A stretch of DNA of 64,000 nt. It comes from Pseudomonadota bacterium. Lineage in GTDB: Bacteria; Pseudomonadota; Gammaproteobacteria; Burkholderiales; Casimicrobiaceae. The translations under genes were made by a program, and so were the position numbers. The DNA lies in contig WQUA01000005.1 in the NCBI GenBank assembly GCA_009786025.1, positions 1-64,000 of the forward strand, read 5' to 3'. The notes beneath the pieces are model-generated. The model worked only from the letters and a program-made list of their open reading frames with translations, did not search any database and was not told the origin of the DNA. Positions 20,467 to 56,241 of this stretch are shown in pieces (within the stretch, counting starts at the first letter, position 1; every line of letters begins with the position of its first letter).

Positions 20467-22520
20467 TGAACAATCCTCTACTGGTTTCCTCGGGGCTTCC
20501 CTGTTTTTCTGATGTGTGCCCTGAACATGTCGCGCCAGCGTTGGCGCAGCGTTTGCAGGAAGCACGCGCTGCTGTTGAACAGGTCGTCGCTTGTGACACG
20601 CCGCCGACTTGGGAAAATCTGGCGGCGCCGCTCGCGGAGGCGTTCGATCGCCTCGAACAAATGTGGGGCGCGGTGTCGCATCTGAATGCTGTGGTCAATA
20701 CACCGGCGCTGCGCGATGCATACAACACCGGCTTGCCGTTGTTGACGGCGTTTCATAGCGAAGTGTCGCAGGATGCGCGTTTGTTTGCGCGATACCGCGC
20801 ATTGCGTGACGGCACTTTATTTGCAACGCTCCCGGAAGCGCAACAGAAAGCGATTGATAACGCGCTGCGGGATTTTCGCTTAGGTGGCGTCGATTTGCCG
20901 GAGCCGCAGCGCGTACGCTTCAAGGCGTTGCAGGAAGAAATAGCGCAGCTGTCGGCAACCTTCGATGATCACCTGCTTGACGCGACGCAAGATTTTTCAT
21001 TGCTGGTTACCGACGCGAAAGAGCTTGCTGGCCTTCCACCCGATGTGATTGCCGAGGCGCGTGCGCAGGCGGAGAAGAACGGGCAAACGGGTTGGCGGTT
21101 GACGTTGCTGGCGCCGTGTTATCGACCGGTGATGCAATACGCTGAACACCGGCCGCTGCGGGCGGCGCTGCATCGTGCTTACGCGACGCGCGCGTCTGAG
21201 TTGGGCGTCGATCCGACGCGCGATAACGCGATGCTGATTCGTCGGCTGCTGGCACTGCGCGCCGAGGAGGCGGATCTGCTGGGCTACCCGCACTATGGCG
21301 CGGTTTCGTTGGTGCCGAAAATGGCCAATAGTGTTGATGAAGTGCTGGCGTTTCTCGGCGATTTGGCGAAGCGGGTGCGGCCTTTTGCCGAGCACGATGT
21401 GGAAGCGCTGCGAGCTTTTGCGCGTGAAAAGCTTGGGCTGGATGAGCTGATGCCTTGGGATGTGGCGTTTGCTTCGGAGAAAATGAAGCAACGCGATTAC
21501 GCTTTTTCCGATCAGGAAGTGCGTGCGTATTTTCAGGAAGAAAAGGTATTGAGCGGTTTGTTTCGGATGATTGAAACCTTATTCGGTTTGACGGTTCGCT
21601 CAGCTCCAGCAGAAACCTGGCACCCTGATGTTCGCTATTTCGAGTTAAGTGACAAAACGAATGATAAAGAAAACGGTGAAGTGGTCGGGCGTTTCTATCT
21701 CGATCTCTATGCACGCGAGAAAAAGCAGGGTGGCGCCTGGATGAATGGCGCGTTGCCGTTACGAGTGAAGCGTGATCATATACAGAAGCCGGTTGTATAT
21801 TTGACCTGCAATTTTCCAGCGCCGGTCAGTGGCAAACCAGCGACGTTTACCCACGATGACGTGCTGACGCTGTTCCATGAGTTCGGCCACGGCCTGCATC
21901 AGTTGTTGACGCGTGAACCGACGCCGGGCGTATCCGGGCTTGAGGGTTTTGAATGGGACGCGGTGGAATTGCCCAGTCAGTTGATGGAGAATTTTTGTTG
22001 GGAGTGGAGCGTGGTCGAGGCGATGAGCGGGCATGTTGAAACAGGAGCGCCTTTGCCACGCACATTATTCGACAAAATGCTGGCGGCGCGACATTTTCAG
22101 GCGGGGTTGATGTTGCTTCGGCAAATCGAATTCGGCTTGTTCGACATGCGGCTGCACGCGGCGCGCCCGGCGCCTGATGCGCGTGCTGTGTTGAACGGCG
22201 TACGCCGTGAGGTCGCGGTGTTGCCTTATGCCGATTATGATCGCTTCGAGAACAGCTTCGGACACATTTTTGCGGGCGGTTACGCGGCCGGTTATTACAG
22301 CTATTTGTGGGCGGAAGTGCTGTCATCGGACGCCTACAGTTTGTTCGAGGAGGCGGGCGTGCTTTCAGCCGAGATCGGTCGTCGGTTACGCGACGAAATC
22401 CTCGGGCGCGGCAGTGTGCGAAATGCGCTACAGTCGTTCATTGCGTTCCGCGGTCGCCCCCCACAAATGGGGGCTTTTTTGCGCCACAATGGCATCATAG
22501 AGGTAGCCGAGGAGGTGTGA
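20466..22520 (+). CDS. prlC: Oligopeptidase A (M3 family)
   Basis: TLFHEFGHGLHQLL zinc motif; 684 aa. Confidence 0.95.
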   Translation: MNNPLLVSSGLPCFSDVCPEHVAPALAQRLQEARAAVEQVVACDTPPTWENLAAPLAEAFDRLEQMWGAVSHLNAVVNTPALRDAYNTGLPLLTAFHSEVSQDARLFARYRALRDGTLFATLPEAQQKAIDNALRDFRLGGVDLPEPQRVRFKALQEEIAQLSATFDDHLLDATQDFSLLVTDAKELAGLPPDVIAEARAQAEKNGQTGWRLTLLAPCYRPVMQYAEHRPLRAALHRAYATRASELGVDPTRDNAMLIRRLLALRAEEADLLGYPHYGAVSLVPKMANSVDEVLAFLGDLAKRVRPFAEHDVEALRAFAREKLGLDELMPWDVAFASEKMKQRDYAFSDQEVRAYFQEEKVLSGLFRMIETLFGLTVRSAPAETWHPDVRYFELSDKTNDKENGEVVGRFYLDLYAREKKQGGAWMNGALPLRVKRDHIQKPVVYLTCNFPAPVSGKPATFTHDDVLTLFHEFGHGLHQLLTREPTPGVSGLEGFEWDAVELPSQLMENFCWEWSVVEAMSGHVETGAPLPRTLFDKMLAARHFQAGLMLLRQIEFGLFDMRLHAARPAPDARAVLNGVRREVAVLPYADYDRFENSFGHIFAGGYAAGYYSYLWAEVLSSDAYSLFEEAGVLSAEIGRRLRDEILGRGSVRNALQSFIAFRGRPPQMGAFLRHNGIIEVAEEV

Positions 22521-47857: not shown

Positions 47858-49314
47858 TCAAACTTGCCGCCTGGCGTGCAACCCCGCCATGCCGAGCATT
47901 GCCAGCGCCAGCAGCGCCAGCGCCCATTGGCCCAGCGTTGGCACGGCGGTGGTGGTGGTGGGCGTGATGCCCGTCACCGTCAGCGTGGCCGGGTGGCTGA
48001 AGTAGTGGACGTAGCTGCCCGCGCCCACGTTCGTCGCGATGGCTTCGCAGACGTGCTGGTTGCCGTTCATGGCTGCCGTGACCGGCGTGCGGGTCAGGCT
48101 GGCGGCGTTCACGCCTTGCGAGGCGCCGCCAATCAGCCAATCCCAGGCCAGCGCGCCGCCGCCCGCCGCCAGGGTTGCGCTGCAAGTGAAAGTGGCGTTG
48201 CCACCCACGGCGGCTGATTGGTTGGTGGGGGCTGCGTCAAGGTGGCAAGGCCCGCGCCATTACCGCCGTCGTAACCGCCCTGGCCTATGGCCGCGCCCGT
48301 GCCGCCTGCGTTCAAGCCGCCGCTACCCGTAGCCGTGACCGTGCCAGTGGTGTCGATCGTGATCGTGCCTGCGTCGGCAGGCGTGGTGGCGTAGCTGCCG
48401 CCGGAACCTATGCCCGCGCCGCCGCCCCGGTTGGTGGCGCCGGTAACGCCGCTCATATCACCCTTGGCGGTCACATTGGCGTTGCCGGTGATGGTGATGC
48501 TGCCGCCACTGCCAGACTCGCCGCCGCCGATGCCTGCACCGGCCCAGCCCGTGGCCGTGACCGTGCCGCCGCTGATGACGATGGTGCCGCCGTTGCCTCT
48601 TTGGCCGCCGCCGATGCCTGCTGCGCCGCCCTTGGCGATCACCGTGCCGCCGGTGATGGTGATGGCGCTGCTATTGCCGCCGCGAGAGCCGCCGATGCCT
48701 GCGCTGTACGCATTGCCGGTGGCCGTGACCGTGCCGCCATGGATGGTGATGGCGCCGCTGTTGCCATCAAAGCCAGAGCCGATGTTGTTGAAGCCGCCGC
48801 CGATGCCCGCGCCGTATGATGGGCCGCCAGTGGCCGTCAGGCTGCCCGTGCTGGCGGCGGTAAGGGTCAGCGCCGCGCCGGCTGGCACGTACAGACCCGC
48901 GCAATTTGAGCCGCTGGCCAGTATGTTGGCGCCGGTGAGCGTCAGATTCACCGTCGCGCCGCGCATATCAAACGCGCAGGCGTAGGTTGTGGCGTTGACT
49001 TCGATGGTCACGCCATTGAGCGTGATATTGGCCGTGACGCCCGGAAGGACCATGATGGTGTCGGTGGTGGTGCTGGCCACCCCGTTCATGGTGAGGGTGT
49101 AGGTGCCGGAGGTGTGGATGTACAGTTTGTCGCCCGCCCAGCCCGTGCCCGCCGTGGGCGAGACCGTCAGTTGCCCCGCCGCCTGCGCCAGACCGGGCAG
49201 CAACAGCAGCGCGCCAAGCGCGAACAGGAAAGAGCGGAAACGGGAGAAGAGGGAGAGAGAAAAATGCCGTCCGGGAAAAGAGGCCGGGGAAGGGGAAAGA
49301 GTCTTATCTAGCAA
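47858..49314 (-). pseudogene. IPTL-CTERM surface protein with glycine-rich repeats, interrupted by a frameshift
   Basis: Signal peptide and GAGIGGG..GGTVTATG repeats in frame 1 (48133-49314); VPTLGQWALALLALAMLGMAGLHARR IPTL-CTERM in another frame (47858-48208); frames meet at G5 tract 48227-48231. Confidence 0.85.
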
Positions 49315-49915
49315 GTGAGCACTAACTACCGGGGAGGGGGGGTAAATGTCATGCTGATGTTATTGACAACGGAGAACATGAAGTTTCCTTTCCAAAAGAG
49401 GGCGATGAAAACGAACAATGCTAAAAATAAAGAACAAACCAAACGTTGCGGGATGCGCTCGCGGGACGCGTCAGCCCGTGTTCCGACGCGCTATTCAGCA
49501 TCAGATCGCTTGTTATATTGCCCCAAATGGGCGCCATCCGGTTGAATTGTTACAAAAATGAGAAGGATTTGGCGAGGCGTGTTTCTCTTTTGCAACTTGG
49601 CGGCGGGGATGGGGCAGGCGATGCTATTCCAGAGTTCTTTTTTTGCGTGCGAGGGGAGAATTTTTAACCACGAAAAATAGGAAGAAAAATCTTCCCTCTC
49701 TCCTGCCCCTCTCCCGCAAGCGGGAAAGGGGGATTTCTCTTCGCAGCTTCGCGCAGGGTGACGCGCTTCGCTTATCCGGTATCTACACGCTGAACAACCC
49801 CATCCCAGCCTTCCCCTTGAAGGGGAAGGAGTTTGTGCCCTTCACGGCTTCGCTCCTTCGCGTGAGGCCAAAACGTCGCGGTTTGCTGTGCTCACCACGG
49901 CCTACGTGCTCGAAC

Positions 49916-55871: not shown

Positions 55872-56241
55872 CGAAAATACGATGCCGTTTGACGCTCAAA
55901 AGTCTGGAGGATATGGCAAGGCCGAGCGATTGATTGTTGTTGATTTGGCGCTGATTGGGCGTTTCGTGCCCCCCGCCGGCTATAAAAACGGGGAATCTTC
56001 TTGCATGAATGCAACAGTCCGTGAAAAAAAGTGCCACAGGAATGGAAATACTATCCAAAGGGCTTTGCGGTAGGGCCCCCCCCAATTTATAGTAGGCAGA
56101 TGAGAGGGCGGCTTGGGCATGGTGGGGCGTGCCCGGAGGGTGTTTAAGGCTTGGGCAAAGCTCAACCAAAGGTTGAGCTTGCGAAGCTAAGTCCATGATG
56201 TTATGTTAGCTTCAGGCAATCAATTTCCCTAAGGGGTTGCA

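Follow-up and report, generated by a model that had tools for sequence, protein, structure and literature searches.

The gene that lies on the minus strand at 47858-49314 of the 64-kb stretch of DNA analyzed here (the window) appears, on balance, to be a frame-broken member of an exosortase-H-type family of beta-helix surface proteins, in whose relatives a 5' poly-C tract would act as an ON/OFF switch and of which the window copy would be frozen OFF. In the relatives, translation would start at an ATG preceded by a ribosome-binding site, and the signal peptide would follow a short leader of 9-24 codons and 10-13 bases of poly-C. Export of the protein would be followed by processing of its C-terminal IPTL-type signal by exosortase H (XrtH). 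Slipped-strand mispairing at the poly-C would decide whether the body is read in frame and so turn the whole protein ON or OFF. Slippage and switching in the family are suggested by gene anatomy, and surface display and XrtH processing are predicted from sequence, as is the putative decay of the window copy. That copy has an interrupted, out-of-frame tract (C7-T-C4), and its sorting signal is cut off by another frame break, at a C5 run.

The larger of the two reading frames (48133-49314, minus strand), defined from sequence and translation, opens with a signal-peptide region (49180-49314, minus strand; hydrophobic core of the translation judged by eye) and continues into a glycine-rich beta-helix repeat region (48250-48828, minus strand; Pfam Beta_helix_3, E 3e-12). 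Its first listed start is a TTG at 49314, which has no ribosome site. The translation of the downstream frame (47858-48226, minus strand) comprises an Ig-like domain (47957-48226, minus strand), which in the relatives aligns in one frame with the repeats, and an IPTL-CTERM sorting signal (47867-47944, minus strand; TIGR04174, PF18203). The product of this downstream frame scored 31.4-34.2 bits against TIGR04174, over the curated cut-off of 20.5 bits, and this match together with that to PF18203 bears out the preliminary description of the gene as encoding an IPTL-CTERM protein. In the window copy the signal peptide and the sorting signal are not in one reading frame (break at 48227-48231). Both frames have a coding-like GC content at third codon positions (0.81 and 0.87), and neither contains a stop besides the breaks.

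The genome from which the window derives (G000) is a draft of 2.36 Mb in 79 contigs, with a completeness of 98% and an estimated contamination of 8.5%. A search of this genome for exosortase H, which the preliminary description had put forward as a check, found the gene (TIGR04177; G000:C73:327-794) at 195 bits against a cut-off of 86, alongside nine IPTL-CTERM matches. In named genomes the closest XrtH matches (82-92%) were in metagenome-assembled genomes including Lab288P4bin72 and Cu122P3bin14. The prefixes Lab and Cu denote Labiotermes labralis and Cubitermes ugandensis, both termites (PMC7024585), and we therefore take the genus for an uncultured lineage of betaproteobacteria that has members in termite guts. 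A search of collected genome contigs found no relatives of the window protein, and it was the XrtH search that identified the genus. Within the same genus, three relatives combine the repeats, the Ig-like domain and the C-terminal signal in a single open frame: G001:C82 (602 aa; tail of a relaxed form, 13 bits, under the IPTL-CTERM cut-off), G003:C167 (793 aa) and, as a paralog from the window's own genome, G000:C11 (893 aa; tail SIPTLNP, judged by eye). The frame break is therefore specific to the window copy or to its assembly.

The preliminary description had the gene split at a homopolymer, and its coordinates, the tract and both reading frames were confirmed: the two frames can be joined only by a change of frame at the C5 run at 48227-48231 (minus strand), past which the larger frame continues for about 30 further codons out of frame. 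A coding-frame hidden Markov model (HMM) trained on the window's genome changed frame within the gene, at 48203/48204. Its remaining direct switches in the window coincide with gene junctions, except one at 22511, and no second unambiguous switch within a gene emerged. Indel errors therefore seem to be rare in the window, and general indel errors of the assembly were rejected as a cause on this ground. The main rival explanation is an isolated consensus error at C5, in which case the gene would be intact at its 3' end and, like several relatives, shifted in frame at the 5' tract only. We regard such an error as possible, though distinctly the less probable account: the genome is a draft of 79 contigs with 8.5% estimated contamination and both frames retain their coding composition and are stop-free apart from the breaks, but indel errors are rare here and the run is short, being one of 60 G/C runs of exactly five in the window alone.

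That same count makes C5 hard to credit as a switch. The preliminary description had raised phase variation at this run, giving an anchored versus a secreted form, and the break does part the sorting signal from the body. However, five bases fall far under the nine that a phasome study set as its lower limit for G tracts (PMC5953494), no long tract occupies this position in the relatives inspected (an in-frame C5 lies close by in G001), and the window copy is broken at its 5' end too. We therefore rejected a C5 switch as very improbable; phase variation was a good idea for the protein family, but not at this 3' site, given the length and position of the run and the state of the relatives. The short C5 run is more likely the mark of an assembly slip or of a gene copy that is no longer functional.

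At the 5' end a further frame break, overlooked in the initial reading of the sequence, comes first in the direction of translation. The only ATG preceded by a ribosome site lies at 49379, downstream of AAAGGAA (49385-49391, minus strand), and eight relatives have this motif, or a closely matching one, ahead of their leader ATG. From this ATG the leader frame (49326-49379, minus strand) runs for 17 codons to a stop, out of frame with the body, and the change to the frame of the main ORF falls at an interrupted poly-C, C7-T-C4 (49331-49342, minus strand), located where comparison with the relatives places their C10-C13 tracts. The HMM coding signal reaches up to 49343, i.e., it starts at this tract. 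In the window, as in the eight relatives, the run sits between the start codon and the body, so its length sets the frame. Neither run in the window copy (C5 or C7-T-C4) attains the approximately nine or more C or G expected of a switching homopolymer, a length that the C10-C13 tracts of the relatives do reach. An interrupted, out-of-frame 5' tract combined with a second, 3' break makes a frozen OFF copy in early decay the simplest reading, and the window copy is probably of this kind; as coding composition is kept in both frames, the decay, if real, would be recent.

The joins at C5 and at C7-T-C4 require a shift in the same direction, both at C runs, as might be expected if programmed ribosomal or transcriptional slippage joined the frames and the gene were functional as it is. 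This is highly unlikely, because the zero-frame context at C5 (CAG CCC CCA) offers no canonical X XXY YYZ heptamer (judged by eye), C5 is short for transcriptional slippage, and the relatives read to the C-terminus in one frame. A programmed -1 frameshift was accordingly rejected for want of the canonical slippery heptamer at the join.

Frozen OFF copy or not, it is the relatives that point to a switch. Eight relatives share the complete arrangement of a ribosome-site-preceded ATG, an open leader of 9-24 codons, an uninterrupted poly-C of C10-C12 and then a signal peptide. They are G000:C11 (C10), G001:C82 (C11), G003:C11 (C11), G003:C38 (C10), G003:C144 (C10), G004:C61 (C12), G004:C42 (C10, ahead of a truncated body) and G004:C3 (C10; its protein begins like a signal peptide and matches no family above a cut-off). 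Of the eight leaders, that of G000:C11 is in frame through its tract; the other seven are out of frame, as is the window copy. Three further contigs start just before the tract (G004:C8, C13; G004:C18, C12; G004:C67, C13) and another, G003:C136, ends inside such a tract. The paralogs have closely similar flanks and differing tract lengths, these length differences being known between paralogs and species. The likely switch of the family is this 5' poly-C, which would act on the whole protein, and not the 3' C5. In G003:C11, C38 and C144 (L157, L133, L219) an inverted repeat, CAACATAT ... ATATGTTG, flanks the poly-C, which could thus lie in a hairpin loop.

Runs of at least nine C or G are frequent in the genus (135 in 20.5 Mb, 6.6/Mb) compared with 49 other genomes of the same family (290 in 188 Mb, 1.5/Mb). 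In the leaders of genes over the IPTL cut-off, five tracts were observed (G003:C11, G004:C8, C18, C61, C67) against 0.12 expected (Poisson 2e-7), a post hoc enrichment calculated only after the pattern had been seen. When IPTL genes were compared one by one for 5' runs, the outcome was 4/49 versus 0/77 (p 0.02), which is weak because the majority of IPTL genes have no 5' tract; in two of the four tract-bearing genes the run is a poly-G outside the coding leader. The tract-centred count is the stronger of the two, though post hoc. It is rather improbable that the 5' poly-C tracts of the relatives are assembly artefacts or neutral runs, with translation starting downstream of them. Many C9-C12 runs of the genus do lie outside leaders, and C runs of 30-43 bases near contig ends in G002, G003, G005 and G010 (L144, L155, L199 and L174, respectively) look artefactual; the latter are probably products of assembly and were set aside. 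The leader tracts, however, include internal ones, have matching flanks in several paralogs and follow a ribosome-site-preceded ATG and an open leader, G000:C11 is in frame through its C10, and the pattern AAGGAA-ATG-C8 occurs at seven distinct places in the genus versus one for the reversed control.

Homopolymers were also seen at other genes. In G000:C17 (L128:3028) a gene judged by eye to be methylenetetrahydrofolate-reductase-like has an in-frame C9 between its ribosome-site-preceded ATG and its body; this run may be part of a dispersed palindromic repeat. A G9 stands immediately before CATATG in G003:C19 (L305), at the ribosome-site position of an IPTL-CTERM gene. The longest G/C run of the window is a C8 at 56076-56083, in the stretch that follows the gene for aspartate-semialdehyde dehydrogenase. 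Runs of G10 or G11 stand a short way upstream of the start codon in three G005 genes that encode beta-helix proteins with exosortase-type tails (IPV..., judged by eye). Their flank recurs at two other places, with G13 and G16, making five shared-flank poly-G loci of G10-G16 (L195:2541-2550, L196:2500-2510, L198 at 2532-2541 of the minus strand, L192 and L193).

Two poly-G tracts fall in genes outside the exosortase family. In G002:C21 an N6/N4 DNA methyltransferase gene is divided by a G10 (L151:2559-2568) into 73 initial codons and an 850-codon remainder in a different frame, and this looks like a phase-variable gene in its OFF state. In G003:C29 a G12 (L165:2734-2745) lies in frame within the signal-peptide region of a PilY1-like protein, a call that rests on a Pfam E-value of 0.006, below the cut-off, with the match beginning near the end of the stretch examined. 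DNA methyltransferases and PilY1-like proteins are classical phase-variation targets. Given the leader poly-C tracts in the relatives and the poly-G in the PilY1-like signal peptide and in the split methyltransferase, we think it fairly probable that the genus uses C/G-tract contingency loci, with exosortase-sorted surface proteins prominent among them and the PilY1-like protein and the methyltransferase as further members.

Homopolymer contingency loci are best known in host-adapted bacteria, such as Neisseria. If the proposed switch is real, it would link two systems, homopolymer contingency loci and exosortase sorting, in insect-gut symbionts, and would suggest strong selection on surface variation in termite hindguts, whether by phages, the host or competitors. 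The idea lends itself to a direct test, as the termite metagenome reads already available would yield tract-length spectra. In the literature searched, from which subscription journals were mostly absent, we found neither phase variation joined with IPTL-CTERM or exosortase substrates nor a description of a 5' poly-C tract on any exosortase substrate. The mechanism is known; its use on the exosortase-type surface proteins of termite symbionts appears to be new.

The family resembles the IPTL-CTERM (TIGR04174/PF18203) and exosortase H (TIGR04177) system in its signal peptide, C-terminal IPTL motif, transmembrane stretch and basic tail, and in the presence of XrtH in the genome, but differs from it in the 5' poly-C tract of the window gene's relatives and, in the window copy, in a sorting signal placed in another frame. 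The Neisseria pilC1/pilC2 genes, homologs of PilY1, undergo translational phase variation by a poly-G in the signal-peptide region (PMC13190605). In these genes and in the family described here, a C/G homopolymer lies within the part that encodes the signal peptide of a surface protein, or immediately ahead of it, and alleles occur in and out of frame, although the family described here is a different protein family with another sorting route and a C-strand tract, and lengths are here compared across paralogs and species. In the phasomes of Neisseria, alleles whose tract has been inactivated by mutation or has fallen below the cut-off have been described (PMC5953494). Whereas our ON/OFF states are predicted from single genomes of an uncultured termite-gut lineage, the relatives resemble those phasomes in tract lengths of at least nine and in the prominence of surface genes, and the window copy resembles their inactivated or below-cut-off alleles.
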